Shown here in pieces: positions 14,957 through 64,000 of a stretch of 64,000 nt of DNA. Position 1 is the stretch's first letter; each line of letters opens with the position of its first letter. Under the pieces are notes generated by a model. The model was not told the origin of the DNA. It made no database searches and saw only the letters and a list, made by a program, of their open reading frames with translations. A program made the translations under genes and the position numbers. Source of the DNA: Haloplanus sp. CK5-1 (lineage in GTDB: Archaea; Halobacteriota; Halobacteria; Halobacteriales; Haloferacaceae); assembly GCF_037201915.1 (NCBI RefSeq), contig NZ_CP147505.1, positions 2,480,001 to 2,544,000 on the forward strand, in the 5' to 3' direction.

Positions 14957-17034
14957 TGCCCCGTCGACCCCGTCGCGACCGCCTCCTCGCCGCCGCGCTC
15001 GTCGTCCTCGCCGGCGTCGTCGTCTACTGGCTGGCGGTCGACCTCTTCCCGTACCACTCAGTCAACGACGACGAGGGCGTCTACCTCACGCAGGCGGCCA
15101 TGCTGCTGGAGGGACAGTTGTACCTCCGGCCTGGACCCCTCGGCGACCTCGTGCGACCGTGGTTTTTCGTCGAGGAAGCGGCCGGCGACGACCTCCGGTA
15201 CTACTCGAAGTACTCCCCCGTCGCGGCCGGGTTCTTCGCCGTCGGGCAGGCACTCGGCGATCCGAACCTGAGCCTCGGCGTCGTCGCCGCCGGCAACGCC
15301 GCCCTCGTGTACGTACTGGCGACCGACGCGTTCGACCGGCGGACCGCCCGATTCGCCGTCGTCGCGCTCGCCGCGACCCCGCTGTTTCTCTTCTCCTCGG
15401 CCGTCTTCCTCCCCTACGCCCCGACGACGCTTTGCAACCTCGCGTTCGCGGTGGCGTACGTCCGGACGATGCGCCGCGACTCACCGCGGTGGGGTGTCGT
15501 CGCTGGCGCGGCCATCGGCCTCGCCTTCTTCGCCCGCCCCTACACCGCCGTCTGCTTCGCCGCGCCCTTCATCGCTCACTCGCTGGGATCGCTGTGGTGG
15601 ACGCGCGGGACGGACCGCTTTCGCCCGACACTCGCTCGACTCCTCGCCGTCGCGGGCCTCGGTCTCGCCGGCGTCGCGGCCACCCTCGGCTACAACGCCC
15701 TCGTGACTGGCGATCCGCTCCTGTTTCCCTACCAGGTGTTCGGCCCGCAGGACGGACCCGGCTTCGGCCGGCGCGAACTGCTGGGGTACGACCGCCTCTA
15801 CACGCCCGCACTCGCCGCGGAGACGACGGTCAGACTGCTCACCCTCCTGTCGACGGAGTGGACGGTCGCCGGTCCCGTCGGCACGCTACTCGCGTTGGTC
15901 GGACTCCGCCGGCTCCCGACCGATCGGGCGTCGGTCACCGACCCGACGCTCTCCCCGCCCACGCTCCGGGCCGTCGTCGTCGGCATCGTCCCGGCCGTCG
16001 TCCTCGGTAACGCCTACTTCTGGGGGACGCTCAACGGACTGGAAAACGGGCTGATCGGCCTGCTTGGGCCGTACTACCACTTCGACCTGCTCCTCCCGCT
16101 GTCGGCGTTCGCCGCCGCGGGTGCGTTCGTCCTGTGGGACCGATTCACCGAGAGGGTCCGCCGACTCGACGGGCGGGAACGGCGGGCCGTCCTCGCCGTC
16201 GCTCTCCTCGTCGGGACGGGCGTCGGCGGCGCCGCGGCCGTCGACGCCGTCGACGGACCGTACGACGAGAACCGTCTCCGCACGTCGAACCTCGCGACGG
16301 CGTACGAGCCGGTCGAGGAGCGGTCGTTCGACGACGCCGTCGTGTTCCTCCCCACGCCCTACGGCGACTGGCTCAACCACCCGTTTCAGCACCTCCGCAA
16401 CGATCCGGGACTGGACGGCGACGCCCTCTTCGTGCAAAATCAGGGCGACGTCGAGCGGTTCGAGACGATCGACGCGACCGGCGACCGGCGACCGTACCGC
16501 TTCACCTACCGCGGGGACTGGACCGGTGCGGTGACGGCGGTCGATCCGGCGCTGGTCCCCCTGTCGGTCGAACGGGGCGACCGCGTGACCGCGACGACGA
16601 CGCTCGGCGTGCCGGCGCGGGCGACGACCGCCAGGGCGCGGATCGTCACGGAGGCCGGCAGCGCCCGGTACGGAATCGGTCGCGTCGACGACTCGGTGAC
16701 GGTCGACTGGGAGGTCGGCGGGGAGCGCGCCGGCGTGACCGGGCGCGACCCGGCCGGGAACGCGACCGCACCGCTCCCGACCGGCGTGAGCGAGGTGACG
16801 CTGCTCGTGACGTTCGTCGAGCCACAGGGAACGACGGTCACCTACCGGCAGACGGTGAGCGTCGAGCGGACGCCGACGGGCGTTCGCGTCATCTGGCCGC
16901 CCGAGACGCGGATCTGTTCGCTCACGACCGACTGCGGGCGTGAGGGGACGTACGTCGGTCCGGACGGCGACTACGTCTCGGGCGTGTCGGTCGAGACGAG
17001 CGCGGCGAGTCGGAACGCGTCGTGGGCAGGGTAG
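14956..17034 (+). CDS. Multi-pass membrane protein, GT39/mannosyltransferase-like
   Basis: A 692-residue protein. It starts with a GTG whose first base is the last base of the ATPase stop (TAGTG), so translation is probably coupled. About 10-12 membrane segments fill residues 10-430. An early HSVNDDEGVYLTQAAMLLEG motif, with an Asp-Asp-Glu in the first external loop, resembles the catalytic loop of PMT/ArnT-type (GT-C) glycosyltransferases. The C-terminal ~250 residues are soluble and beta-rich, likely outside the cell. Its link to iron uptake is only positional. Function is unassigned. Confidence 0.6.
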   Translation: MPRRPRRDRLLAAALVVLAGVVVYWLAVDLFPYHSVNDDEGVYLTQAAMLLEGQLYLRPGPLGDLVRPWFFVEEAAGDDLRYYSKYSPVAAGFFAVGQALGDPNLSLGVVAAGNAALVYVLATDAFDRRTARFAVVALAATPLFLFSSAVFLPYAPTTLCNLAFAVAYVRTMRRDSPRWGVVAGAAIGLAFFARPYTAVCFAAPFIAHSLGSLWWTRGTDRFRPTLARLLAVAGLGLAGVAATLGYNALVTGDPLLFPYQVFGPQDGPGFGRRELLGYDRLYTPALAAETTVRLLTLLSTEWTVAGPVGTLLALVGLRRLPTDRASVTDPTLSPPTLRAVVVGIVPAVVLGNAYFWGTLNGLENGLIGLLGPYYHFDLLLPLSAFAAAGAFVLWDRFTERVRRLDGRERRAVLAVALLVGTGVGGAAAVDAVDGPYDENRLRTSNLATAYEPVEERSFDDAVVFLPTPYGDWLNHPFQHLRNDPGLDGDALFVQNQGDVERFETIDATGDRRPYRFTYRGDWTGAVTAVDPALVPLSVERGDRVTATTTLGVPARATTARARIVTEAGSARYGIGRVDDSVTVDWEVGGERAGVTGRDPAGNATAPLPTGVSEVTLLVTFVEPQGTTVTYRQTVSVERTPTGVRVIWPPETRICSLTTDCGREGTYVGPDGDYVSGVSVETSAASRNASWAG

Positions 17035-17037
17035 CGC

Positions 17038-17955
17038 TCACAACAGCGTCAGTTCGACGGTGGAAAACGAGCGGTATGCGTCGCCGAGCGCCGCCTCGGG
17101 GTCGCCGGTCGCGTCCACCGGCGCGACGGCGACGGCGCCGCGGTCCAACTCGTCGAGGACCGTCCGCTCGCCCAGGAGGACGAGACGATCGGGGTCGCGC
17201 CGGTCGAGGACCGCCCGGCAGTCGTCGAGGTGGGCGGCCACCTGTTCGTCGCGGCGGCGCTCGAACCGCGACTGGGAGAACCCACCCTTCGAGTGGGTTG
17301 CCTGCACGTCCGTCTCGACGGTCTCGACGTCCCGCAGCTCGCCGCCCTCGTCGACGATACCGACGGCGAACAGGTCCGAGCGCACCAGCGCGACGGTGAG
17401 TCCCTCGGGTGGTCGAAACCAGTCTCCGTCGAGACGGAAGCCGGCCCCCCACTCGACGAACGGGGCGGGAGCCAACGGCGGATCGAGCGCGACGCTCACG
17501 AGACCGGCGTCGTCGGCACAGACCAGACAGGGCGCGACGCGGCGCGCGAGGGCGGCCCGGTCGCCGAGGGCGTCGGTGAGGGCCTCGGTCGTCGGGTCGT
17601 CACGCGAGCCCGATCCCTCGTCTCCTCCGACCATCGTCGTCAACGCTCCCTCCGGCCCGGTCTCGACGCTCCGGAGCCGGGCGAGCACCTCGTCGAGACG
17701 GTCGTCACGGAGCGACTCGGTCCCGCGCGGTGTGAGGTCGGGTGCGTCCGCCGACTCCTCGGCGACTCGATCCTCGAGTTCGGCGATCCGGTCCTCGAGA
17801 CGGTTGACCCGCTCCTCGGCGGCCTGTCGGTCCGTCACCGCGTCGGCGCGACGGTCGCTCTCGGCGTCGAGGCGACGCTCTAGGTGGCGCTTCTCCTCCT
17901 CGAGTTCCTCGATGCGCGCCTTCAGTCCGGCCCGCCCGAGCAACCTATCGAGCAT
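17038..17955 (-). CDS. Vms1/Ankzf1-family (VLRF1) peptidyl-tRNA hydrolase-like protein
   Basis: A 305-residue protein. An N-terminal coiled coil (about residues 5-70, with many Glu/Arg heptads) precedes an eRF1-like VLRF1 domain. The motif HSKGGFSQSRFERRRDEQ around residue 220 matches the catalytic loop in which Gln acts as in the release-factor GGQ. Family members free stalled peptides from tRNA during ribosome quality control. It stands alone, convergent with the upstream membrane protein gene (3 bp apart). The archaeal role is inferred. Confidence 0.75.
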   Translation of the reverse strand: MLDRLLGRAGLKARIEELEEEKRHLERRLDAESDRRADAVTDRQAAEERVNRLEDRIAELEDRVAEESADAPDLTPRGTESLRDDRLDEVLARLRSVETGPEGALTTMVGGDEGSGSRDDPTTEALTDALGDRAALARRVAPCLVCADDAGLVSVALDPPLAPAPFVEWGAGFRLDGDWFRPPEGLTVALVRSDLFAVGIVDEGGELRDVETVETDVQATHSKGGFSQSRFERRRDEQVAAHLDDCRAVLDRRDPDRLVLLGERTVLDELDRGAVAVAPVDATGDPEAALGDAYRSFSTVELTLL

Positions 17956-18099
17956 AGGGAAGCGAGCGTGCGCCGACGCCTTCTACCCTGTGGCTGAGGC
18001 GAGGGGGGCGAGACCGCAGCGACCGGAAGCGAGGCTTCGTGGCGGCGCGGCGAGCGCGCCGAGGCGCGGAGCGGGCGGTGGACCGAAGCACCGACCCGA

Positions 18100-18453
18100 T
18101 CAGACGGCCGAGTCGCCGGGGTCGTAGCCCGCGTACCGCAGGAGTTCGGCCGCGCGGTCGGGTTTGGCGAGGAACACCTCGCGCCGATCGGGGAGGTCAC
18201 CGTCGCTCTCGACGACGCTCGGGGGGAGGCCGAGCGTCCCGGAGGGGACTCCCTCCTCGCCGTGGACCGGGAAGTGTGCCCCGTCGAGTTTCATCACGAG
18301 CGGTGCGTCCAGCCGTTCGACGCCCTCGCCGGTGGCGTACAGCCGCTGGTTCATCCGTTCGTGGTCGGCCTCGTGGATGACCGCGTGGTCGTGCTGGTGG
18401 GGTTCGACGTACAGTCGCCCGAGGTAGTAGCCGGCGGAGAACTCTTCGAACAT
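18100..18453 (-). CDS. Conserved haloarchaeal protein (DUF5802-like)
   Basis: A 117-residue soluble protein with an aromatic- and His-rich N terminus (FEEFSAGYYLGRLYVEPH, then QHDHAVIHEADHERMNQRLY) and a central VMKLDGAHFPVHGE segment. It resembles a small haloarchaeal family of unknown function. No catalytic motif is evident. It is a single gene; an AT-rich stretch (CACGATATAAGTC, plus strand 18479-18491) just upstream on the opposite side may hold its promoter. Confidence 0.6.
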   Translation of the reverse strand: MFEEFSAGYYLGRLYVEPHQHDHAVIHEADHERMNQRLYATGEGVERLDAPLVMKLDGAHFPVHGEEGVPSGTLGLPPSVVESDGDLPDRREVFLAKPDRAAELLRYAGYDPGDSAV

Positions 18454-50608: not shown

Positions 50609-50683
50609 GGGTTGGTGGTCTAGCCCGGTTATGACGGCTCCTTCACACGGAGCAGGCCGGCGGTTCGAATCCGCCCCAACCCA
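50609..50683 (+). tRNA. tRNA-Val (CAC anticodon)
   Basis: A 75-nt cloverleaf. The acceptor GGGTTGG pairs with CCAACCC plus discriminator A. The anticodon stem GCTCC/GGAGC has loop TTCACAC (anticodon CAC). The T arm is GGCGG-TTCGAAT-CCGCC. Base composition changes abruptly after its 3' end, marking the start of an AT-rich island. No second copy of the tRNA 3' end is in the window. Confidence 0.95.
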
Positions 50684-50912
50684 CTTGCTCGCTTGACGCT
50701 CGCAAAGGACCGCAAGCCGCATCTTCAGGCCTTGATTCAGTGGTTCCCGCAGTGAGAGCCACTTCAGGGAGGGGAGAAGGAGTCACGCGAGTTGTTGGCT
50801 CCTCCTCACCGTAGCCACGTATAGCGATTGTACCAAAAGGAGATACTCGTGTGAGGGTACTAAGTGTTCCGACTGTTAAAGGTCGTTAAGATTTCTCGCC
50901 CCGCGTGAACGC

Positions 50913-52594: not shown

Positions 52595-52669
52595 GCACTT
52601 TTTTGATAGATTTCTATTTTGAAAGAATATAAAGCGACCCCCGCTCACCCATTATGGAAAGCACAGGTT

Positions 52670-52716
52670 GCGGAAGTTTCCCATATTGGAATACTATATG
52701 CAATACTTCCGCAAAA
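52670..52716 (+). repeat. Island repeat, copy 1
   Basis: This copy has GCGGAAGTTTCCCATAT on the left and ACTATATGCAATACTTCC-GC on the right, followed by AAAA. The AGTTTCC and ACTTCC half-sites start 30 bp apart. It lies between two convergent genes. The outermost GCGGAAGT and ACTTCCGC form an inverted repeat in this copy only. Confidence 0.7.
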
Positions 52717-52823
52717 CTAACTCCCCTACGTGCTTCTTCGAGAGAAGAGCGGTTCTGTTACTTCATAGAAATCGGGTGGTGCGAATCGTCGCTGGTGAGC
52801 TGTTCAGACCTTACCTTTGAGAA

Positions 52824-53126
52824 TTAAACCGTGGTAACAGGCTTGCCCTCCGCGTGTTGTGGGGTCGGTTCCGTCCGCGATTCGTTCAGTTGAAGCGTCT
52901 GGGTCGGCTGATGGTAGACCGGCGATAGCTCAACACCACGGTAGTACAGTTCTCGGAGGAGGGCGTTATGCTCATCTATTACCTCACGGTCGAACTCCAA
53001 TTCGCCTGTCTGCCGAAGGAGTGGCCGGAGTCGCCTTTTTAGTTCCTTAATAGTACCTGACGTGTCATACTTCTCATCGCAGCTTTGCGGTCGGCTGTCG
53101 TATTCGATATTTACGTTATTTGCCAT
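52824..53126 (-). CDS. Hypothetical island protein
   Basis: A 100-residue soluble protein. A charged helical middle (GTIKELKRRLRPLLRQTGEL, REVIDEHNALLRELYYRGVE) is followed by a Pro/Thr-rich tail. No motif points to a function. It has moderate GC and lies between two copies of the island repeat. Confidence 0.5.
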   Translation of the reverse strand: MANNVNIEYDSRPQSCDEKYDTSGTIKELKRRLRPLLRQTGELEFDREVIDEHNALLRELYYRGVELSPVYHQPTQTLQLNESRTEPTPQHAEGKPVTTV

Positions 53127-53459
53127 AGTTATGACTCACTATTTGAAGTTATGCACCGCTCTTGAGAAAGCGAATGCGTACTACTATTAGGGAGATTAGT
53201 ACTTAAATCATTTGGACATATATCATATATTTAGGGATTGGAATATGCGTGATATAAGGCCTGAAACGCCTATTTTTACCATTACCAGCTATCCCGATAT
53301 ATTGAGATTATCAGATGGCAAACCTAATAACGATACATATCTCTGGCACAAGCACAGAGCTTCCAAAACTTCCCGATATGGTAGTACCATATACAATACT
53401 TCCGCAAACTTAGAGACTTCGGAAAAGACCGTCCGTGTGCCTCTCCCAAGGTCAAGCGG
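53127..53459. other. AT-rich intergenic region with island repeat copy 2
   Basis: This 333-bp stretch holds the promoter zone of the minus-strand gene ending at 52824 and, near its far end, repeat copy 2. A 103-codon plus-strand frame across it lacks coding character and overlaps the next gene, so it is not called. Confidence 0.5.
53366..53408 (+). repeat. Island repeat, copy 2
   Basis: ACTTCCCGATATGGTAGTAC continues to a second ACTTCCGCAAA, half-sites 30 bp apart. The centre ATATGGTA-G-TACCATAT is a perfect palindrome, the clearest of the three copies. Confidence 0.75.
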
Positions 53460-54341
53460 TCACGGGGGAACGTTCTCTGTATGCCCGAACTGTGCGAGCG
53501 GCGCTTCCCCTACCCCAAGGTAGTATGCTCCGATGAGGTCCGTCTCGATTTCTTTACGCTTGTGCGAGGTGTCGAGGTCACTCCGTTCGGCGAAGGCGAA
53601 GAGCGCATCTTCACCGAAGGTTTGCTCGTGATTGTAGAGCCGTGAGGAGATGTTACTGGATTCCCCGATGTACGCCAAGGTCGATTCCTGCCCCTCGTAC
53701 CAGATACGATAGACTCCCGTATCGGGCGGATTGGCGTCGAGACGTTGTGCCAGTCGGTATGGCTCGGACCAGTCGAGATTCATCCAGTCTCGGGCCAGTG
53801 GTGTACGCCAGTTCTGCCAGTTGGGAGGAGCGATACCACTTGCAGAATTAGGTTCATCCTCGCCCGATTCGAGGCGGCCACCCTTGTACGCAGGGTCGTT
53901 GTAGCTGTAGGAGGATTGCTTGTAGCCGTCGATGATACGACCGAAGTTCGCTGTCGGGCTACGGTCTACCTCTCGTCGGTGTAGGGCGATGAGAGCCGCT
54001 TCTATCCCCTTCCGATGTTGTTCGTCCTCTGCTCTCGGAGGAATCGTGTGCGAGACTTCGAGCGCAGAGCCAACGTCATCTCGAACTGCCCAGAGACAGG
54101 GAGCCGCCGTATGTGGGTCTCGGTAGGGCATCTCCTCTGCGTGGACACCTCTTGCGAGGCTTTGGATTCGTCTTCGGGTATCGCCGGATTCACCGATGTA
54201 TTCGAGGTGGTCACGTTTCTCGCTCCCGTGACAGATACGGTACAGTCCCGGTTCTTTCGGAACGTTAGAGAATGAGTCTGCATCGAGTAGGTTCCATTCA
54301 GACCAGTCGAGGTTCATCCAGTCGACAGAGAAAATACCCAT
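53460..54341 (-). CDS. Protein with two GIY-YIG-like domains
   Basis: A 293-residue protein that repeats one unit. In the first, an MNLDWSEWNLLDADSFSNVP lead is followed by EPGLYRICHG...LEYIGESGDTRRRIQSL (about residues 30-68). In the second, MNLDWSEPYRLAQRLDANPP is followed by TGVYRIWYEG...LAYIGESSNISSRL (about 200-240). Both carry the GLYRI/YIGES pair and the Arg of the GIY-YIG fold. A linker of ~100 residues contains basic and Tyr-rich sequence. The duplicated array suggests dimer-like cleavage. It lies 33 bp downstream of the restriction-methylase gene on the same strand, so the two may act together. Confidence 0.75.
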   Translation of the reverse strand: MGIFSVDWMNLDWSEWNLLDADSFSNVPKEPGLYRICHGSEKRDHLEYIGESGDTRRRIQSLARGVHAEEMPYRDPHTAAPCLWAVRDDVGSALEVSHTIPPRAEDEQHRKGIEAALIALHRREVDRSPTANFGRIIDGYKQSSYSYNDPAYKGGRLESGEDEPNSASGIAPPNWQNWRTPLARDWMNLDWSEPYRLAQRLDANPPDTGVYRIWYEGQESTLAYIGESSNISSRLYNHEQTFGEDALFAFAERSDLDTSHKRKEIETDLIGAYYLGVGEAPLAQFGHTENVPP

Positions 54342-54374
54342 TTCTATAGATGTTTAATTACCAGTCAAGATGGT

Positions 54375-57300
54375 TCAGTCGTCCTGACGCTCCTGATAGG
54401 CCTCTATAACATTTCTTTTCTCTCTTTCACGGACATCAACGTTGTTCAGAACCGCTCTAATCCCGCTATCGCTGACAGAATACAGTTCCATTACGAGCGC
54501 GTTCGTTTCATTCCATAATGAGGATATCTTCTCATCTAATTTTCCAAGAGATGATATAATATTCTCATCCGAATGTTCCATTACTGCATCGGATTCAAAA
54601 CTGCTTTCGATATCATCCACTACATTCCGTGTATTTTCGGCGCTGTCTTGTCGAACAACCGGTATTTCTGTCTTGTCCAAGATATCCTCTACGCACTCAA
54701 TTTTCTTCCGCGTTCGGAATAGGGTCAACTTCATAGCGGCTAAGACGTGGTCTCGCAGTTGCCGAGTGTCGAACTCTGCTTCAAACAACTCGGTTTCTGA
54801 CTGGTCATCAACTCCGTGGACGAGAACGCTTTTTGTACCCTTTGACTCTGCCGAAAATTCTGGGTATTCTTCTGTTAGCTCATCTTGGTCAGTGTCAGGG
54901 TAGAAAGTGACCGAGTCTGTCCACGCTTGGTCCCGATTTCCGCTCTGGATATACGTTTTATCGTTTGAGAGGATAGTAGATAGGGAACGGTTCTCATCGC
55001 TAAGAAGTTCACTCTTTTCCTCCCAAATGTTGAGAAGTAACTCTCTATGATGGTTTCTGTCCAGAAGCTCCCCAACTGTCTCTTCGAGAGTTTCGATTTC
55101 GTCCTCATCTCCGTTTATATCCGGAATTGATAGATTCCTCAATTGTGGTGCTTGGAATTGGAAGTCTCCTCCCCTCATACGCAGGGCTCCGAACAAACCA
55201 GCATACAAGAAATCAGCCACATAACTATTCAATATTCCACCATAATACAGCATACTTTCGTCGCCATCATAGAATAGGTTAGTGTCAACAGAGGAATATG
55301 AACCATCAACATCTGGATATGCCTCAATTGTAGACGCTACCTTAGCAAACACCAGCTTCTCCTTCTGATATTGGTCACGGCGCAAATCGGTGATAATGTC
55401 GTGTGTGGTGTCAAGAACTGGTTGGCCGTAATCATCGCCTTGATGTCTAATCTCCTCAAACTCCCAGAAAGAGAGAAGCGGGTCAATTGCACCAGTTTTG
55501 ATGAACTTCTTTTTGTGGTTGTCTGGGTCGTCTTCGGAAAGAGCTACGGTGAACTCTTCAGCTTCACTCGCGGTACTTGATGCTTGGACAGTTCCCGCAT
55601 TCTTGAGCATTTGACAGTTCTCATAAATATCCCAGAAAACGCTGTCGTCAGTCAATAGCAGGAAACTCCAAATATTCTCATCAAGCTCATCCAAATAATC
55701 ATACTCGTGCTCGTGGTCGTAATCGGAATCGCCAAGAGTGTCTTTCGTAGGCGGGCTATGACCTCTTATCGCCGCATCATCTGGAGCACTGTTTGCTTGA
55801 TAGACCGGGATTACCGGATAGACACTGGGGTCATCAAAGACGTTGAGTTGGGAAACATCAGAGAGGCTCACGAAGTGGTTCTCGTTGTCGATTAAGTATT
55901 CACGGAATCCCTGAGCGTAGGGGGCGGCCAAGTGTTTGTTCGGGACAATATACGAGACATATCCCTCATCTTGGACAAGGTCAAAACCAAGCTGGAGAAA
56001 CAGTAAATATACGTCATAGGCTCCGCTGGCAGATTCGTCGAACTTGTGTTCCCAGAAGTCACGTTCACATTCTTCAAAGTGCTTATTCCGAGCGATAGCG
56101 TTGATATATGGCGGATTTCCAATTACAAAATCAAATCCTGTATTCTCCTGCAATTCCCCATCATCGGTAAAGTAGGTATGCCAGAATGCGGCAGGCCAGT
56201 GTTGGGGAATTGTTTCATCGAAAATATCTGTCGACAAGTCCTCAGATATTAGATAATCCTCGAACTCTTCATTAAGTGCCTCTTTTAAGTCATCCTGCTC
56301 ATCAAGGATATCATCGGCAATTCCCTCCTGAGTATGGTCACTGACATAATCGTTTCTCAGGCTGGATAAGTTCTGAAGAGTGTTCGTATGGTCTTCGTTC
56401 AAGTTGTCAATTGCATCCTCATCCGGTAATCCAGCGAGTGCGTCACCATTCTGTAGATTTAATTCGAGATTGGGAAGAGTGTAGCCTCCCCCGCGTGGAA
56501 TATTGCTGTAACGGAATGCCTCTGGTACCTTTTTGATGCTTTCTAACCAGATATTCACTTTCGCAACTGCTAACGCATCAGCGTCCTTATCATTCCCAAA
56601 GATATGACGGAGAATGATTTTAGCCACTAACTCTCGGTCATTTTTATATCCAACAATATCTCGGAGTTCTTGAACACTGGCGGCATTTTCTTGGTCTTCC
56701 TGTGAAATATCAAGCGAACCGTTGAAATCCAGATATTCTATTTCTTCAAGCTGGTCGATTATTTTCCGATATCGTTCCCAGATAACATCAAATGCCTTAA
56801 TCAAGAATGAGCCAGACCCGCAGGCAGGGTCAATAACTTTGAGTGACTGCATCTCCTTCAGCGTCTCCTTAGCGGTCTCAAACTCTTCATTTTCAACCGC
56901 AGTATGGAAGTCGGAGACATACTCGTCAAAGGTTTCCCCCACAGTTTGTTCAACCATATAGCGAGTCACCTCTTTTTCTGTGTAGTAGATACCTTCTTCT
57001 TCCCTGCGTTCGGCAAGTGAGGTCTCATACGCCTTGCCGAAGATATCCTCGTCAATTTGTCGATAGTTAAAGTTTGTAATTCCCTTTCGACTGGAGGTTT
57101 GTTGCCAATCTTCAAGACCGAGTATTTGCGGCAGAATTTCGTAAAACTCCTCAAGATTCTCCTTCTCGTCGTCTAGAAGCTCTATGAAATCAATCTCCTC
57201 TTCATCGAATAGTTCGGTATCATAATATGCGAAATACCAATCGTTGACTTCGCTGAGGAATTTTTCGAGGACTTTCTCGCCACCGATATGTTCCCAATCT

Positions 57301-58097
57301 CGCGTAATTTGGTTCCAGCGTTTCTCTATCCAATTAAAATTGACAACGAAATGGTCGTCCAGTGTCTGAATAAATATGAACTTGTTTATGAATGTGATGA
57401 CTGCTTCAGTTTGCTCTCTTTCCGAGACACTGTCTTTGAAATCCAGTTCGTGTAAGCTTTCTCGCCACGAGTCAAGGCCCTCAAAGAAAGATTCGTCTAA
57501 CGCTCCTCGCTCTGCTCGCCCCTCCACTCGTTCCAGATAATCTCGGAGCTCCCCGATAGTCTGAAGGTCATCGTATACTTCATCAAATTGTAATTCAGCT
57601 ATAGGCTCACTTTGCCGTTTACTGAAAAAGACCCATTCATCTAAATTTGTAAATACGAGATACTCATTTTCTCCTCTATACCGCTCTATCTGTTCTTGGT
57701 GGTTTCGCCAATTCAAACGGCGCTTATCAATTCGTTGAATATCTCCATCACGTTCGTAGGCCTCAAACGGCGGTTTGATTTCAAGCAAAATAGGCATTCC
57801 ATCAGCTTGGAGCCGATAATCCACGATACCGTTCTCTATCCGTATTTCTGGACTCATTCGACCAAAAATGGCCCTTGCCAAGACTGAGGCGCTCGTGACA
57901 AGCTTATCTTTTAGTGCTGGCTCAGGTTCTGAACCGTTCCTCAAATCATCAAGATACTCTAAGACTAATGAACTCTCCAAGTTTAGGTCTCGAAGTTCGT
58001 CAAGTTCGATTTGGTCCCTATCAAAGATTGTCTGTAAATCAGACACTATCGAGTGGAGTTTCGCACGTTCCTCTGAAGACAAATCAGACGTACTCAT
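54375..58097 (-). CDS. Type IIG-like restriction enzyme / N6-adenine DNA methyltransferase
   Basis: A 1240-residue single-chain enzyme. Near residue 105 ILLEIKPPFEAY, preceded by IVDYRLQADG, is a PD-(D/E)XK-type nuclease core. The methyltransferase has motif I IDPACGSGSFLIKAF (about 422) and motif IV FVIGNPPYINAIAR (about 660), the D/N-PP-Y signature of N6-adenine methylases. The C-terminal ~450 residues are probably a target-recognition domain. No separate S or R subunit and no BREX pglZ or brxC gene is near, so a stand-alone type IIG system is likely. AT-rich codon use marks it as acquired. Confidence 0.88.
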   Translation of the reverse strand: MSTSDLSSEERAKLHSIVSDLQTIFDRDQIELDELRDLNLESSLVLEYLDDLRNGSEPEPALKDKLVTSASVLARAIFGRMSPEIRIENGIVDYRLQADGMPILLEIKPPFEAYERDGDIQRIDKRRLNWRNHQEQIERYRGENEYLVFTNLDEWVFFSKRQSEPIAELQFDEVYDDLQTIGELRDYLERVEGRAERGALDESFFEGLDSWRESLHELDFKDSVSEREQTEAVITFINKFIFIQTLDDHFVVNFNWIEKRWNQITRDWEHIGGEKVLEKFLSEVNDWYFAYYDTELFDEEEIDFIELLDDEKENLEEFYEILPQILGLEDWQQTSSRKGITNFNYRQIDEDIFGKAYETSLAERREEEGIYYTEKEVTRYMVEQTVGETFDEYVSDFHTAVENEEFETAKETLKEMQSLKVIDPACGSGSFLIKAFDVIWERYRKIIDQLEEIEYLDFNGSLDISQEDQENAASVQELRDIVGYKNDRELVAKIILRHIFGNDKDADALAVAKVNIWLESIKKVPEAFRYSNIPRGGGYTLPNLELNLQNGDALAGLPDEDAIDNLNEDHTNTLQNLSSLRNDYVSDHTQEGIADDILDEQDDLKEALNEEFEDYLISEDLSTDIFDETIPQHWPAAFWHTYFTDDGELQENTGFDFVIGNPPYINAIARNKHFEECERDFWEHKFDESASGAYDVYLLFLQLGFDLVQDEGYVSYIVPNKHLAAPYAQGFREYLIDNENHFVSLSDVSQLNVFDDPSVYPVIPVYQANSAPDDAAIRGHSPPTKDTLGDSDYDHEHEYDYLDELDENIWSFLLLTDDSVFWDIYENCQMLKNAGTVQASSTASEAEEFTVALSEDDPDNHKKKFIKTGAIDPLLSFWEFEEIRHQGDDYGQPVLDTTHDIITDLRRDQYQKEKLVFAKVASTIEAYPDVDGSYSSVDTNLFYDGDESMLYYGGILNSYVADFLYAGLFGALRMRGGDFQFQAPQLRNLSIPDINGDEDEIETLEETVGELLDRNHHRELLLNIWEEKSELLSDENRSLSTILSNDKTYIQSGNRDQAWTDSVTFYPDTDQDELTEEYPEFSAESKGTKSVLVHGVDDQSETELFEAEFDTRQLRDHVLAAMKLTLFRTRKKIECVEDILDKTEIPVVRQDSAENTRNVVDDIESSFESDAVMEHSDENIISSLGKLDEKISSLWNETNALVMELYSVSDSGIRAVLNNVDVREREKRNVIEAYQERQDD

Positions 58098-58258
58098 TAG
58101 ACCCTCATTCTTACACCATCCTTTTTAAAGTTGCTCAGGACCGATGGTGTGTCACTGGTGTCAACGGTTTCTATCGATTGGATGAAAAGGAAAATCTGCG
58201 TGTTGATATGGTAGCGTGTTTTCGAGAACTGTCGTGACACCGTGGTAAAGATGGTTTC

Positions 58259-58540
58259 TTACATCTTGGGCAAGTCTCTGTCTCGCTCCTCAACCGAGAT
58301 TAGACGGTTGTTCCAGAAGACCGCCTCGACTATCACCTCATCGGCTCCGTCTGTCTCTTCTCCGATAGTCGTCTCTCCACACTCATCGCACCACACTCGT
58401 CGGAGTACCCACCCATCTCGGTCGTAGTGAGTCGCATACGCTCGCACGAGGTCGCCAGTCCGAATTCGCTTGTTACATTGGTCGCAGATATGCCCCGACC
58501 GAACTCCGTTGAGGGCCTTCGCAGGGTTGGTATGAGCCAT
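58259..58540 (-). CDS. Small two-zinc-knuckle protein
   Basis: A 93-residue protein from ATG 58540. It has HICDQCNKRIRTGDLVRAYA and VWCDECGETTIGEETDG, two CxxC pairs with HNH-like spacing, followed by a short beta-rich end. It lies 4 bp after another zinc protein on the same strand. Such proteins are common in haloarchaeal plasmids and viruses; function unknown. Confidence 0.6.
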   Translation of the reverse strand: MAHTNPAKALNGVRSGHICDQCNKRIRTGDLVRAYATHYDRDGWVLRRVWCDECGETTIGEETDGADEVIVEAVFWNNRLISVEERDRDLPKM

Positions 58541-58544
58541 CGGT

Positions 58545-58691
58545 CTACACCTCCAGCGAGGAGTAGACGACATTACACTCGTCACAGACCCATCCTCGCT
58601 GACCCGTCACTGTATCGAGGAGCGCACCATATTCGAGAGAGTCGCCACACTTCGGACACTGCTTGCCATCGGTCGACCGAGTGCGACTCAT
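58545..58691 (-). CDS. 48-residue zinc-ribbon micro-protein
   Basis: Minus-strand ATG 58691 to stop 58545 encodes MSRTRSTDGKQCPKCGDSLE, then a link and GWVCDECNVVYSSLEV. The CPKCG and CDEC pairs form one zinc ribbon. The start overlaps the SWIM-protein stop by 4 bp (ATGA), and the next gene begins 4 bp after its stop, strong evidence that it is translated. Confidence 0.7.
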   Translation of the reverse strand: MSRTRSTDGKQCPKCGDSLEYGALLDTVTGQRGWVCDECNVVYSSLEV

Positions 58692-59146
58692 TCGTCTTCC
58701 CCCACGTTCGGGTTCGGCTCCTCGAAGCCGTCACGGTAACACGGCCAACAGGGAAGCTCCTTGAACAGAGGGCTACAATCGCAGTCGTCGGGTCGCTCGT
58801 TGAGGTGGTTGGGTTCCTCTGGTTCGACCGTCACGCCACCATCTGCCCTCATTGCAGGTTCGGTAGTCGCGGCTTCAAGAACCGGCTTGCGGATAGCGAC
58901 TGCCAGCAAATGTTTACACGCGCCTTCTTGATACTCGAAGGCGGGACAGGTGCAATCAGACGGAATCCCGCTCTCGACGTGAACCGTGTAGGTGTGTTCC
59001 TCAGGCTCGTCGTGCGAGCCATTCACGACTTCGACATTACTCCCTTCGAGAATCGTGAACTCGAAGCCTTCCCACTGTGCCCGCTTCTCGACTATCGTAT
59101 TTGCGTCGAGTAGTTCGACCACTTCGGAAGGGGCTAATTCCGACAT
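58688..59146 (-). CDS. SWIM zinc-finger protein
   Basis: A 152-residue protein with the SWIM motif CxC-x9-CxH: Cys65, Cys67, Cys77 and His79 (DCTCPAFEYQEGACKHLLAV). SWIM domains bind DNA or proteins and often accompany mobile elements and helicases. A second Cys cluster (DDCDCSPLFKELPCWPCYRD) near residues 117-136 may hold another metal. It follows a small Cys-rich gene by 2 bp and overlaps the micro-protein gene. Confidence 0.8.
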   Translation of the reverse strand: MSELAPSEVVELLDANTIVEKRAQWEGFEFTILEGSNVEVVNGSHDEPEEHTYTVHVESGIPSDCTCPAFEYQEGACKHLLAVAIRKPVLEAATTEPAMRADGGVTVEPEEPNHLNERPDDCDCSPLFKELPCWPCYRDGFEEPNPNVGEDE

Positions 59147-59148
59147 CT

Positions 59149-59364
59149 TTAGCCCTCGATGAAGATGGTGAACTCATTTCCACAATCGCTACATCGGTGG
59201 GTGAAGATGAGCGAATCGGAGTAGCCCCGTCGCTTGCTCGTCGTGATAGCCTCGATTGAGCACAGGCAGGGAACTCCTGAATCGAGACGGAATCCCGGTA
59301 GTTGTCGCAGTCGGTCGATTTGCTGTTCGCCAAGTTCTTGTCCGCTGGCTTGCGTAGTTGGCAT
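59149..59364 (-). CDS. Small Cys-rich protein
   Basis: A 71-residue protein. CLCS (about residues 33-36) and CSDCGNEFTIF near the end suggest a zinc ribbon split by a loop (EAITTSKRRGYSDSLIFTHR). ATG 59364 gives the shorter form; an in-frame ATG at 59406 would add 14 residues. It heads the minus-strand operon of four small metal-binding proteins. Confidence 0.55.
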   Translation of the reverse strand: MPTTQASGQELGEQQIDRLRQLPGFRLDSGVPCLCSIEAITTSKRRGYSDSLIFTHRCSDCGNEFTIFIEG

Positions 59365-59460
59365 TGGCCTGTCTCTCCTGAGAAGGCCACCGTCCGCCTG
59401 CTCCAACAGGCGGGCATTTTCCGAACGATAATCCCCGAAGGGACGGCTTCCTTCTCATCT

Positions 59461-59496
59461 TTTCCTATAAACGGAAGGAACTTAGTTCTTTCCTAT
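59461..59496. promoter_or_regulatory. Palindromic operator ahead of the winged-helix gene
   Basis: GGAAGGAAC-TTA-GTTCTTTCC (59473-59493) is a near-perfect inverted repeat. TTTCCTAT occurs twice, at 59461 and 59489, 28 bp apart. The block lies ~40 bp before the winged-helix start and may bind that protein. Its architecture (half-sites ~3 helical turns apart) resembles the dispersed island repeat. Confidence 0.5.
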
Positions 59497-59536
59497 TGTG
59501 GGAAATCTTATTGCGCTCCGATGAGAACCGTCGGAT

Positions 59537-59749
59537 ATGACCGAAGAAGACCCTCGACGCCAATATTCAGACGTTGACTTCCTTGATGCAGTTGCAAAAC
59601 ACACGCCTGCATCAACCTCCGAGGTAGCTGATGAAGTGGGTTGTACGCGCCGTAATGCTGATATGAGGCTCAAGAAACTGGCTGATGAAGGAAAGGTGAA
59701 GCGGAAAAAAATCGCCGCATCGCAAGTCTGGGCGCTCGTAGAAAGTTAA
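59537..59749 (+). CDS. Winged-helix DNA-binding protein
   Basis: A 70-residue protein. PASTSEVADEVGCTRRNADM, then RLKKLADEGKVKRKKIAASQ, is a compact winged helix (recognition helix at about residues 35-48) and fills nearly the whole protein. It is probably the element's repressor, given the palindrome just upstream. It diverges from the zinc-protein operon. Confidence 0.75.
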   Translation: MTEEDPRRQYSDVDFLDAVAKHTPASTSEVADEVGCTRRNADMRLKKLADEGKVKRKKIAASQVWALVES

Positions 59750-60333
59750 GAAAGCGTGTTTTGCATCAGGTAGTTTATTTTTATACGAATAGGAATGAAG
59801 CCGTATATTATTAGAACGCACTCCTTTCGCGGACTTACCTCTCGCTGGGGTAGGGTAAATGCGGTTGTTAACAACTCACATGGATCGAAATCTTGAGTCA
59901 AGAAAACCGGCTACCCCCAAATTTCATCCCGTCTCAAAATGCGGTCAGGTTAATGCGGCCCCATCGAGAATTATGCTGAATTCTGCTAATGGTCCTAAAT
60001 ATGCGCTATATGCATATATAGGATACACCCTATGCAGCCCAAGGATAGGGGCCAATGAACTCACCTCAAGAAGTGGCAAAATTCTTATCGTATTGGTTGC
60101 CACACCCGACAAACCGGAGAGCATCACGCCTTAGTATAATTTTTCTTATGAAGCGGTAGAAGTCTTATAAACACTAATATAGCCACTCTTAGAAAATACG
60201 GATGCAAAAAATCGCCGGACAAGAAACCGGTTCATATTCCTACTCGGCAATCATCAAATCCTTAATATTAAGTACCTATCAGCCCTATACTGTAGTACAT
60301 CCCGACGAAAAGAACTGGGATGTCTGAGAACCA
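59750..60333. other. AT-rich non-coding region, possible replication origin or control region
   Basis: The 584 bp hold no convincing gene. A 91-codon frame (59859-60134) lacks a motif and coding bias. The region contains the perfect 12-bp palindrome TATATGCATATA (60007-60018) in a longer AT-rich run, and AT-rich blocks at 60155-60200 and 60260-60275. It sits within a probable replicating or integrative element near a primase-helicase gene. Confidence 0.4.
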
Positions 60334-60420
60334 ATGATAGCAGAATACCTACACGCAGAGCGGATGCTGTACGATTCGCAGAACGAGAGCGGCCAGTTCG
60401 GGGTGTCGGCGAATGAGTGA
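60334..60420 (+). CDS. Possible 28-residue leader peptide gene
   Basis: ATG 60334 to TGA 60420 encodes MIAEYLHAERMLYDSQNESG, ending QFGVSANE. Its last 8 bases overlap the ATG at 60413 of the next gene. This is the overlap style of coupled genes in this genome, and the codons are GC-richer than the flank. A TATA-like TTAATATTAAG lies ~65 bp upstream. It may be real or only a leader. Confidence 0.4.
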   Translation: MIAEYLHAERMLYDSQNESGQFGVSANE

Positions 60421-60802
60421 GTCTGAGGCAAAAATGACCTCGGAGATGAGTGCTGAAGAAGAGCTTCAGATGAGAGTGTCAGGCAAAGAACCGTCTATCC
60501 AGACTATCAGCCCTGATGAGCTCCGTGAAATTCGCCCCTCCCCAAACATGGATGAAAAGATAGAACGCGACGTGATGGGATCACATACTGCGCATGTTAT
60601 TTGTGGGAGTACTATTTTCATCGCGTCAGAGACGGGCGATGTGACTCCCGAGATGGCAGCGAGTCTGTTGTCACACGAAATGATGCACCACATTTTACTG
60701 GCAGAGATCGGGGTCAAAGCCGCTCAAAAGTATGATGCGGTGGCTGACGATCACTACGAGGGATTTGAAGATAAAATGCAGAAAATGAAAGAAGTAGAGT
60801 AG
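60413..60802 (+). CDS. Small HExxH-motif protein (putative metallopeptidase-like)
   Basis: A 129-residue protein. The C-terminal half carries ASLLSHEMMHHILLAEIG; HEMMH is the HExxH zinc-peptidase motif inside a helix. It is preceded by IFIASETGDVTPEMA and followed by an acidic helix. A third ligand could be a downstream Asp/Glu/His (VADDHYEGFED). The N terminus is short and charged, with no signal peptide. It could act inside the cell on a regulator, as ImmA-like proteins do, but this is inference. Confidence 0.6.
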   Translation: MSESEAKMTSEMSAEEELQMRVSGKEPSIQTISPDELREIRPSPNMDEKIERDVMGSHTAHVICGSTIFIASETGDVTPEMAASLLSHEMMHHILLAEIGVKAAQKYDAVADDHYEGFEDKMQKMKEVE

Positions 60803-61150
60803 CCAATTCGTGTCTCTGTCGTCTGGTTAACATTGGAGTGAAATGCCCCGCTCGTCTCTCGAAGAAGCACGTGGTCAAGTTACGGAACTTCCCCATATAG
60901 AAAGACGATATACAAGACTTCCGCAAAGAGAAAAGCGGCAATAAAATCTGGTACCAGTAAGTTTACCAAAAGGTTTAAGTAGGAGGAGTTCCTACATAAT
61001 GTTACGAAGAGAAACACTACCGGTTGGTATATCGGTAGGACACGGATCGGACGACTATCTTTGCTGATTCGTGAGTTGTCTAGTGACTCCGCGAGCTACG
61101 AAGCAGTCGGAAGTCTGCAGTTGTAAATCACTCCACAAGGAGAACACAGT
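60803..61150. other. Intergenic region with island repeat copy 3
   Basis: The 348 bp between the HExxH gene and the 60-residue gene hold repeat copy 3 and an AT-rich promoter-like block (AAAAGGTTTAAGTAGG, about 60967-60982). No gene is called. Confidence 0.5.
60882..60928 (+). repeat. Island repeat, copy 3
   Basis: ACTTCCCCATATAGAAAG continues to ATATACAAGACTTCCGC followed by AAA. The two ACTTCC half-sites start exactly 30 bp apart (60887 and 60917), as in copies 1 and 2. Confidence 0.72.
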
Positions 61151-61333
61151 ATGACACGAGACAATACGATCGTCCTCAGCGACGAGGAGAAAGCACTGGT
61201 AGAAGAGACAAAACAGACGCTCTATGGTGAGGAGAGTATCCCTCACTGTCACGTTATCGGCCACGCACTACGCCAAGTCCTACACGACGCTCGGACGACA
61301 GGCGCGCCTACGGAGGTCTCTGTCGAGAACTAA
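61151..61333 (+). CDS. 60-residue island protein
   Basis: A small protein beginning MTRDNTIVLSDEEKALVEET, then KQTLYGEESIPHCHVIGHAL and RQVLHDARTTGAPTEVSVEN. It is helical with His/Cys in the middle. It resembles short antitoxin- or regulator-like proteins of haloarchaeal elements but no family is certain. It precedes the replication gene. Confidence 0.5.
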   Translation: MTRDNTIVLSDEEKALVEETKQTLYGEESIPHCHVIGHALRQVLHDARTTGAPTEVSVEN

Positions 61334-61465: not shown

Positions 61466-64000
61466 ATGAGCACCGGTGTGAGTAAGCCGGATGATGAGTG
61501 GAAACCGTTTGGCCAAGCCCACCTGACTGACGCAATAGAGCGTGCCAATGCTCTCAATCAGTCGGTTTCCGAAGCTCATCCGAATCTGCTCACCATCTGG
61601 AACACCTCTGACGAGGAGCGGGCCAAACTCTTGGACGAGTATCTCGACGCTCTCGAAGCAGTCTGTCCCGACCCTCGGCTCATACCGCTTGATGAAACAG
61701 GGAAAGCGCCTGCCATCAGGGGAACGTGTAGCCTCGACTCTCAGCAAGCGCAAGAGATGCTCTACACGCCAGAGGAGGCTATCAAGGCCATCGAACGAGG
61801 GGCTAACGGCTTCGCCCTCTATGCAGGACGCTCGGACCACGGAACAGAGGACCTCGTCTTCGCAGACCACGACGACCTCCACGCATTCCCGCTTGACACC
61901 TTGCCCGATACCCTTACTGTCGTCTCTGGGTCGGGGGAGGGCTATCACGAGACCTTCGTGAATGCGGGCGACGTACGAAATGCGATGAGCGACGGTGGTG
62001 AAATTCGGGCGAGCAACTGGTACGTAGTAGTTCCCGGTTCCATCCACCCATCTGGCGGTATCTACCATCTCGAAAAAGAGCGCCCTATCGGGGAACTGGA
62101 AACCGACGACATTCCCGAAAGGCTCCGCCCCGCTACCGATTCCTACGACGGCGAGAACATCGAACTTTCGGGAGATTCGACAGACCGCTGTTTCACGAAT
62201 GAGTTGGGTATGTCACTCGATGAGGTACGAGAGTACGATGAGAAACTCGATGAACTGCTGAGAACCCCACCTCGGCCAGACCTCGACGCTGACATACAGG
62301 ATGACAGTGCTGTTGACGGCCACCTCATCTGGCGACTTCGATGGCATCACTTCCAGTTAGCCGACATCGAGGCTATCTGGCGACAGTACCGCCCTCGCTC
62401 GAAACTGGAGCGCGACGAGTGGGTCAAGCGACGGCTCCGCGAGTGTGGGATGCACGACGAACGCTGTCGCTATGATGGAAGCGAGCAATCCATCACCCTC
62501 CCCGAAACCCCGTCATACTCTGACTGGGACTGGCAGACTGGCACTACGGGCGATGAGACAGCCCTGACGCTGGAAGAAGCGCGTACCCGATGCCAGAGAC
62601 GCATCGATACGGCTCTCAGCAACGGGGCGCACACGCTGATAGACGCCCTGCCAGCGATGGGGAAAAGTAGCGGTGTCATTCGGGGAGCAGCGAAGACTGA
62701 GACTCCCATCAGTGTGTTCACTGCTCGGCACGACCTCTATGGTCAGTACAGCGAATGGTGCGAGGAACACGGCCTATCGTATCATCGGCTTCCGTCCTTC
62801 CACGAGGACTGTCCTACGGCTCGTGGCGAACACGGTGATGACTGGCGCGAGAAGGTACTCGACATCTACGACGAGGGAGTGATGGCCAACGAGATTCACA
62901 AGTGGGCCGAGCAGTATTTCGGTCAGTCACTCCCCTGTGATGACGGGCAAGAGTGTCCCTACAAACAGGGATGGGATTTCGAATCTGACGAGTACGATGT
63001 CCTCATCGGTCACTACCAGCACGCCTACAATCCAGACATCACGGCAGGGCGAGTCGCCGTCTTCGATGAGTTCCCTGCCGATTCGTTCCTGTTGGAATTC
63101 GAGGGCGACACGGTTACATCAGCGGTGTCGGCCTACGTTTCCGAACACGACGGCCTTCCCTTCGAAGACTTCACCGAACTGGTCGAAGTTCGTAACTCCG
63201 AAGAAGGGAAAGAAGCGCGCGAGTGGTTCGATGCCGACGACCTCGAACGAGACGGTGAGCCTGTCCTGAAAGATACGAGCGGGTCGGCCAATGCCTACGC
63301 GCCCCTACTCACATACACGATCCTCATCGGAGAGAACCTCGGGAACGGATGGGAACACGCCGACCTTGATAAAGGAGCAGGGGTCGGCACTCACCGCAAG
63401 GCGGCACAGAACCGAGATTCGGGCGAGGTGTTTCTACTCCTGCCGCCAGAACTGGATGGCGCGAGCGGTGTCATCGCCCTCGACGGAACGCCGACGCCCG
63501 ACCTCTGGCAACTGGCGGTCGATACTGGATTGAGCCACGCGCAAGTACTATCGGACGAGGAGCGGGCCGACTATCTCACCGATGCACTCGGTGATTCCAT
63601 CATCCAAACGACGGAGGCCACCAAGACGTATTCGAGCGGTACCTATGTCTCCCCAGAGAAGGATGGCCTTCTCTTCGAAGCGGTGGCCGAGCGTGAAGAG
63701 ACGAAGCCTGCCCTCATCTCGACAACAGAGGCCATTCGCCAATACGAGCAAGAAGGTGTACTCGCCTCTATCGGAACGCACGAGCACTACGGCAATCTGA
63801 AAGGGACGAACGAATTCCAACAGGAGCGGGTCGGCATCGTAGCAGGGAGCCAGCACTACGGAGACGATTACGTCGAACGATGGGGCGCACTCGCTGGCCA
63901 GAGTGTCGAACGCGGGGACGGCAAAGGGATGGACCTCGACTATGGCGAGTTCGGGAATAAGGTTCTCCGTCATATGCGAGAGCACGAGGTACTCCAAGCC
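61466..64000 (+). CDS. Primase-helicase-like replication protein, 3' end outside window
   Basis: At least 845 residues with no stop before the window end. ATG 61466 is preceded by GGAGGTG, a good ribosome-binding site. The N-terminal ~220 residues resemble a PrimPol-type primase (DLVFADHDDLHAF with acidic residues; WYVVVPGSIHPSGGIYHLE near 188, the VxPxS-xHPSG motif). A P-loop follows, DALPAMGKSSG (about 394-404), and Walker B VAVFDEFP near 530, so a helicase domain comes second. A mobile-element replication protein is the best reading. The middle has a Cys cluster (CPYKQ, CDDGQEC). Confidence 0.75.
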   Translation, partial: MSTGVSKPDDEWKPFGQAHLTDAIERANALNQSVSEAHPNLLTIWNTSDEERAKLLDEYLDALEAVCPDPRLIPLDETGKAPAIRGTCSLDSQQAQEMLYTPEEAIKAIERGANGFALYAGRSDHGTEDLVFADHDDLHAFPLDTLPDTLTVVSGSGEGYHETFVNAGDVRNAMSDGGEIRASNWYVVVPGSIHPSGGIYHLEKERPIGELETDDIPERLRPATDSYDGENIELSGDSTDRCFTNELGMSLDEVREYDEKLDELLRTPPRPDLDADIQDDSAVDGHLIWRLRWHHFQLADIEAIWRQYRPRSKLERDEWVKRRLRECGMHDERCRYDGSEQSITLPETPSYSDWDWQTGTTGDETALTLEEARTRCQRRIDTALSNGAHTLIDALPAMGKSSGVIRGAAKTETPISVFTARHDLYGQYSEWCEEHGLSYHRLPSFHEDCPTARGEHGDDWREKVLDIYDEGVMANEIHKWAEQYFGQSLPCDDGQECPYKQGWDFESDEYDVLIGHYQHAYNPDITAGRVAVFDEFPADSFLLEFEGDTVTSAVSAYVSEHDGLPFEDFTELVEVRNSEEGKEAREWFDADDLERDGEPVLKDTSGSANAYAPLLTYTILIGENLGNGWEHADLDKGAGVGTHRKAAQNRDSGEVFLLLPPELDGASGVIALDGTPTPDLWQLAVDTGLSHAQVLSDEERADYLTDALGDSIIQTTEATKTYSSGTYVSPEKDGLLFEAVAEREETKPALISTTEAIRQYEQEGVLASIGTHEHYGNLKGTNEFQQERVGIVAGSQHYGDDYVERWGALAGQSVERGDGKGMDLDYGEFGNKVLRHMREHEVLQA

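Follow-up and report, generated by a model that had tools for sequence, protein, structure and literature searches.

How archaeal plasmid initiators of the primase-helicase kind locate their origins is an open question: a stem-loop is known from pRN1, and specific binding to it has not been detected. In this Sulfolobus plasmid, the stem-loop of about 100 bp lies downstream of orf904, is required for replication and stays functional when moved (PMC4234260, PMC3869888). Here we describe a repeat found in a stretch of 64,000 nucleotides from Haloplanus sp. CK5-1 (contig NZ_CP147505.1, positions 2,480,001 to 2,544,000; hereafter the window), in which an AT-rich island proved to be a 14.85-kb element integrated in tRNA-Val(CAC). 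The element encodes an initiator-type protein, Rep, and comparison of sequences indicates that the repeats are probably recognition palindromes for this Rep, the copy after rep probably serving as origin and the other copies perhaps as control sites or recombination anchors.

The locus shares several features with pRN1. In both, Rep combines a Prim-Pol domain with a C-terminal winged helix, a small gene precedes rep (orf56 in pRN1, a 60-aa gene here), and a palindrome of about 100 bp lies tens of bp downstream of rep; here this applies to c4, one of the element's four copies (c1 to c4), and to its counterparts in two related elements (G158 and G229), and 26 of 29 relatives have a dyad at the 3' end of rep. 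In contrast to pRN1, where structure occurs without conserved sequence, the arm sequence is conserved and correlated with the protein; the helicase motifs resemble superfamily 2 (SF2) rather than superfamily 3 (SF3), and three to four dispersed copies occur per element, which integrates in tRNA genes. Because of the differing helicase motifs, the conserved sequence and the dispersed copies, we regard the system as pRN-like in its working and do not class it as a pRN-type member.

Iteron plasmids carry Rep sites, as arrays of direct iterons, at the origin, the rep operator and a distal control locus. The proposed split of Rep sites among origin, rep promoter and a distal control site is similar, whereas the sites themselves are single gapped palindromes without a direct-iteron array. 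Satellite-type replication modules with a winged-helix initiator include Rep of the Staphylococcus aureus pathogenicity islands (SaPIs). P4, with its alpha protein, provides another such module (PMC4234260). Like these, the Haloplanus element is integrated and has a primase/helicase-type initiator with a C-terminal winged helix and a probable origin near its gene; the origins of those modules, by contrast, consist of repeats around an AT-rich region, and no packaging genes were identified in the Haloplanus element. In phage lambda, the origin lies inside the O coding sequence. Initiator gene and binding site form one inheritable unit there, as they would in the many relatives described here whose dyad is coding, but the proteins are unrelated and one dyad stands against four iterons. 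Finally, Orc1/Cdc6-dependent haloarchaeal origins have an adjacent orc1/cdc6 gene, a family that is not found among the element's proteins.

Four Copies of a Gapped Palindrome in One Element

The first-pass annotation of the window had described three dispersed repeats built from direct half-sites 30 bp apart. The repeats were recovered where it had placed them (52664-52715, 53357-53408 and 60876-60927), with pairwise identities of 75-81% over 52 nt, and the exact 30-bp spacing of ACTTCC-like blocks is present in all three, with 0, 0 and 2 mismatches to ACTTCC-N24-ACTTCCGC. As a description of the geometry, however, direct half-sites are a misreading. Each copy is a gapped palindrome composed of TTGCGGAAGT, CATAT, a 9-bp centre, ATATG and ACTTCCGCAA, and the alignment of 11 copies (four from this element, three from G158, three from G229 and one from a further locus, G186) yields the consensus TTGCGGAAsTyTnsCATAT-n9-ATATGnnAnAsTTCCGCAA. 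The repeat profile also matches every copy when the other strand is read. The ACTTCC-like block on the left forms the inner edge of the arm on that side, TTGCGGAAsTTyCC, and the 30-bp spacing, while real, arises because the longer dyad produces it; distant relatives retain the dyad and not the direct repeat. As read from the alignment, inverted outer boxes, CCGCTCaTCTCTCGAAGAAGCACGTGGG and its complement, enclose both the element-end copies and the copy that follows rep, whereas in class b copies (c3 and copies b of G158 and G229) the left box is intact and the right box is reduced to AGCGG, followed by a promoter-like block.

The genome holds four copies, three in the window and a fourth 353 bp past its end, directly after rep, where a search of the organism's own genome placed the repeat match at 64353-64440 (window numbering). 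Confinement to the island was borne out: across the whole 3.24-Mb genome, in which copies outside such islands were looked for, the longer repeat matches the island copies only, and the exact ACTTCC-N24-ACTTCCGC pattern matches two of these and nothing else. A scan of the window with the same pattern gave four matches (0.7 expected), the fourth of which, at 1521, is unrelated, and ACTTCCGC-like matches at 75213-75407 (window numbering) were set aside as coding matches inside a neighbouring integrase gene. Exact-pattern scans found just two unrelated chance matches in bacteria among the contigs of GTDB and none in IMG/VR; a blastn search with the repeat gave no match in plasmids or phages.

The copies lie between genes, as had been claimed, except that some reach a few codons into gene ends. 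One palindrome occurs per site, with sites 0.7 to 7.5 kb apart and no direct-repeat cluster. c1 is situated between two convergent genes, c2 at the 3' end of a GIY-YIG gene on the minus strand, c3 about 30 bp upstream of a block resembling a B recognition element and TATA box (BRE/TATA-like) that precedes the rep operon, and c4 between rep and the integrase gene, which is convergent with it (64443 to about 65470).

The Dyad Accompanies Rep in Distant Relatives

Relatives of Rep were found in 91 of 392 genomes of the order and none in phages or viral contigs. The part most widely shared is the helicase-like plus winged-helix region. In L055 (3447-7226) and relatives, this module is joined to varied primase parts (Prim-Pol, DNAG_N-like) or to none. 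Carriers include the small circular plasmids of Halomarina sp. BCD28 (10.8 kb) and Halorientalis litorea (8.9 kb) and two other contigs, of about 9.1 kb, whose ends overlap. Small plasmids of the Rep family also encode unusually short tyrosine recombinases of 211-212 aa (L055 9758-10393, L057 7811-8449), which are related to the G158 and G229 integrases.

In the first set of 29 loci, 26 have a dyad with this geometry, and its place behind the part of rep that encodes the winged helix is fixed: about 10-40 bp past the rep stop codon in short versions, and in long-tailed ones about 133 nt ahead of it. It is the strongest dyad of its locus of about 4.8 kb in 14 of the 29 relatives and weak in four of the 26 (L034, L043, L045, L046); among seven further loci, clear dyads were found in four (L073, L075, L076, L077). 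When the proteins of 18 elements were clustered, Rep was the only family common to all, the integrases splitting into separate groups and two elements (L061, L062) showing no recombinase in this clustering.

Pairing, Constraint and Match to the Winged Helix

The outer arms differ in letters among relatives and yet remain complementary, with all four pair types represented. Over the 26 sites, 235 of 286 outer-arm positions pair (82%), compared with 122 +/- 6.5 after shuffling (43%; maximum 148 in 2000), and 128 of 182 inner-arm positions compared with 82 +/- 5, while gap and centre show no excess over shuffles; these statistics are inflated by the common descent of the sites (see below). In 15 versions with a coding dyad that align without gaps, third codon positions within it are conserved as much as the other positions (0.80, against 0.50-0.57 in the flanks), and G+C content at third positions drops from 0.73-0.80 to 0.50.

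The arms also follow the protein. Arm distance correlates with the distance between Rep winged helices (r 0.56), also given the helicase part (partial r 0.42, 0 of 2000 permutations), whereas the converse partial correlation with the helicase given the winged helix is -0.09. At the level of recognition helices, RQVR goes with GCGGAA, RQQVF with TTCGTnAACT and RQVG with TTTCCGAACT. Reps with RQVR mostly have GCGGAA arms even where identity elsewhere is 38-50% (the present element, L029, L035, L051, L073), the match being less clear in L034 and L039.

We favour recognition by Rep because the dyad follows rep throughout the family, its arms track the winged helix and Rep alone is common to the 18 elements. 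Several observations weigh against it. The dyad is not at the expected place in L044, L050, L072 and L074, is equivocal in L078 and lies off that place, 388 bp downstream, in L041; within the element, the dyads of c2 and c4 are imperfect (11/17 and 12/17). The dyad is single-copy in the distant Rep relatives tested, so that the extra copies are without precedent in the family. For pRN1, neither gel shift nor footprint detected specific binding of Rep to the stem-loop (PMC4234260), and the shared ancestry of the relatives means that the shuffle and Mantel tests overstate independence.

Proposed Mechanism

Two Rep winged helices would bind the two outer arms of 10-11 bp in opposite orientation, with the inner arms and the AT-rich centre as the likely loading or melting site. 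The copy c4, conserved family-wide, most probably acts as origin once the element has been excised from tRNA-Val. For the class b copy c3, ahead of a block predicted to act as promoter of rep, the probable role is that of an operator through which Rep controls its own expression. The end copies (c1 and c2, or copy a) may be further sites for Rep, used in copy control or as extra origins, and may also serve as recombination anchors and as borders where modules would have been exchanged. Least certain in this scheme are the roles of c1, c2 and c3. More tentative, and in our estimate somewhat doubtful, is the wider proposal that, throughout a large family of haloarchaeal plasmids and integrative elements, the initiator gene carries its own site as a dyad behind or within its 3' end, with the arms obeying a readable code in the Rep winged helix, and that one branch copied the site to the rep promoter and the element ends, where it marks the borders of integrase and cargo exchange.

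A literature search on haloarchaeal plasmids together with winged helix and inverted repeats gave no result. A dyad that is compensated, constrained as DNA and correlated with the winged helix supplies directly testable protein-DNA pairs in culturable hosts, and such dyad/Rep pairs could provide compatible replicons for haloarchaeal genetics.

Alternative Explanations

The first-pass annotation had suggested binding sites for an element-encoded regulator or Rep, and the Rep form of this proposal is the one that held up. The size of the dyad would also fit a dimeric regulator of transcription without a direct role in replication, for example the element's 70-aa winged-helix protein, which resembles the Rep winged helix, and c3 and its equivalents are indeed directly upstream of the rep promoter-like block. 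c1 and c4, however, lie between convergent genes and away from promoters, the copy found throughout the family is placed at the 3' end of rep or within its coding tail, and no relative of the 70-aa protein was detected in most of the dyad-bearing elements compared; since its recognition-helix region (CTRRNADMRL) is also unlike that of Rep (RQVR), it is the less likely binder, and operators of this kind are in our view unlikely. We give slightly less credence to sites for site-specific recombination or dimer resolution (Xer/dif-like, or an integrase core) that would mediate module exchange. The elements are homologous precisely up to palindromes, past which their integrase modules are unrelated, and G158 copy a combines a c1-like sequence with the right flank of c2, the outcome expected of a c1-c2 deletion; these junctions are nonetheless explained by homologous recombination at repeats, and c4 and G158 copy c are alike in their right halves, so that no exchange at the centre is seen. 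Moreover, several directly repeated sites would permit the loss of rep and int, and it is Rep, not any recombinase, that all carriers share.

A hairpin acting as RNA or single-stranded DNA, whether as terminator, structured RNA or rolling-circle nick site, appears improbable. It would suit the two copies of the element that lie between convergent genes, and c1 and G158 copy a fold as single-stranded DNA far better than shuffled sequences (z -5.5 and -6.4; c2, -3.1), but c3 (-1.4) and G158 copies b and c (-1.1 to -1.4) are barely above chance. The outer boxes pair within a copy no better than with boxes of other copies, showing no within-copy compensation, and GT pairs are not prominent among the departures in the outer arms. 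Many relatives carry the dyad within coding sequence, 133 nt before the stop codon, and a scan with Rfam matched the tRNA alone and no structured RNA at the repeat. The uneven fold strength and the non-compensatory outer boxes favour a site recognized as duplex. The mobile repeats that had also been suggested, akin to miniature inverted-repeat transposable elements (MITEs), would share with the observed copies their number, similarity, intergenic place and inverted symmetry; with all genome copies inside one element, syntenic positions in three elements and a single copy fixed at the rep 3' end in distant plasmids, this origin is very improbable.

Related Elements and Module Borders

G158 and G229 are elements of 11.2 kb and 14.7 kb, both in tRNA-Arg(GCG), with Reps 79-85% identical to that of the Haloplanus element over the aligned parts. 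Each has three syntenic copies, near the left end (a), upstream of the 60-aa gene and rep (b) and directly after rep (c). DNA homology to the Haloplanus element stops precisely at c4's outer edge (64440, corresponding to 19939 in G158 and 15129 in G229), beyond which the integrases are unrelated, and it also breaks where the left copies have their edges; G158 copy a and c2 match in their right flanks. A 100-aa gene lies between c1 and c2, has no counterpart at that place in G158, and its DNA follows a palindrome copy in G186 and G229, a pattern of presence and absence expected from recombination between flanking palindromes.

At G186, a lone palindrome (L018 14409-14592) is located 140 bp past tRNA-Ile with DNA like that of the 100-aa gene adjoining. 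No Rep relative was found in the 35 kb of sequence covered, and it is possibly the remnant of an element. Tandem repeats of 297 bp follow the palindrome at 16928-18399.

The Element and Its Genes

Table 1. Positions of the palindrome copies and associated features, in window numbering.
Feature	Position	Strand	Description
Copy c1	52639-52752	+	imperfect palindrome of ~114 nt; core dyad centre 52691, 15/17 scored positions paired
Copy c2	53335-53460	+	degenerate; core dyad centre 53384, 11/17 paired
Copy c3 (class b)	60847-60942	+	core dyad centre 60903, 12/17; complete left outer box, truncated right outer box
Copy c4	64326-64442 (outside window)		dyad centre 64378, 38 bp past rep end
Promoter-like block	60955-60985	+	CCAGTAAG(T/C)TTAC..AAAAGTTTAA(A/G)TAGG; downstream of copy b, conserved in G158 and G229
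60-aa protein gene	61151-61333	+	precedes rep; also conserved in G158 and G229
Rep gene	61466-64000, continuing to 64339	+	957 aa: Prim-Pol, helicase-like part, C-terminal winged helix
70-aa winged-helix protein	59537-59749	+	distant relative of Rep C-terminal domain
attL	50659-50683	+	last 25 bp, GGCGGTTCGAATCCGCCCCAACCCA, of tRNA-Val(CAC) 50609-50684
attR	65506-65530 (outside window)		identical to attL

The element's right end (attR, Table 1) is adjoined by its tyrosine integrase gene. Some 240 bp past attR there is another tRNA-Val(CAC) gene, different from the first (L009 17771-17846; window numbering 65770). In Rep, the N-terminus matches Prim-Pol (E 2.8e-10, above the cut-off) and the C-terminus a FaeA-like winged helix; the helicase-like part matched no helicase family and no solved structure, and its conserved motifs GKS, DEFP and QAxxRFGR, read by eye, look more SF2-like than SF3. 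A fold model from the single sequence was too poor for use (mean predicted local distance difference test score, pLDDT, 37). The 60-aa protein gave no family match.

Further cargo includes SWIM and winged-helix proteins and, at 54375-58097, a 1240-aa type IIG restriction-methylation protein (Eco57I-like), at the equivalent place of which G158 and G229 have no DNA homology. The stretch at 59774-60427 (about 650 bp) is 83-87% conserved in both of these elements. Its changes are distributed evenly among the three phases and Rfam gave no match, and from its sequence it is a conserved non-coding locus. The GIY-YIG protein (53460-54341) consists of two similar halves (DNA repeat 53764-53789 and 54298-54323) and weakly matches the PADLOC entry PDC-S14.

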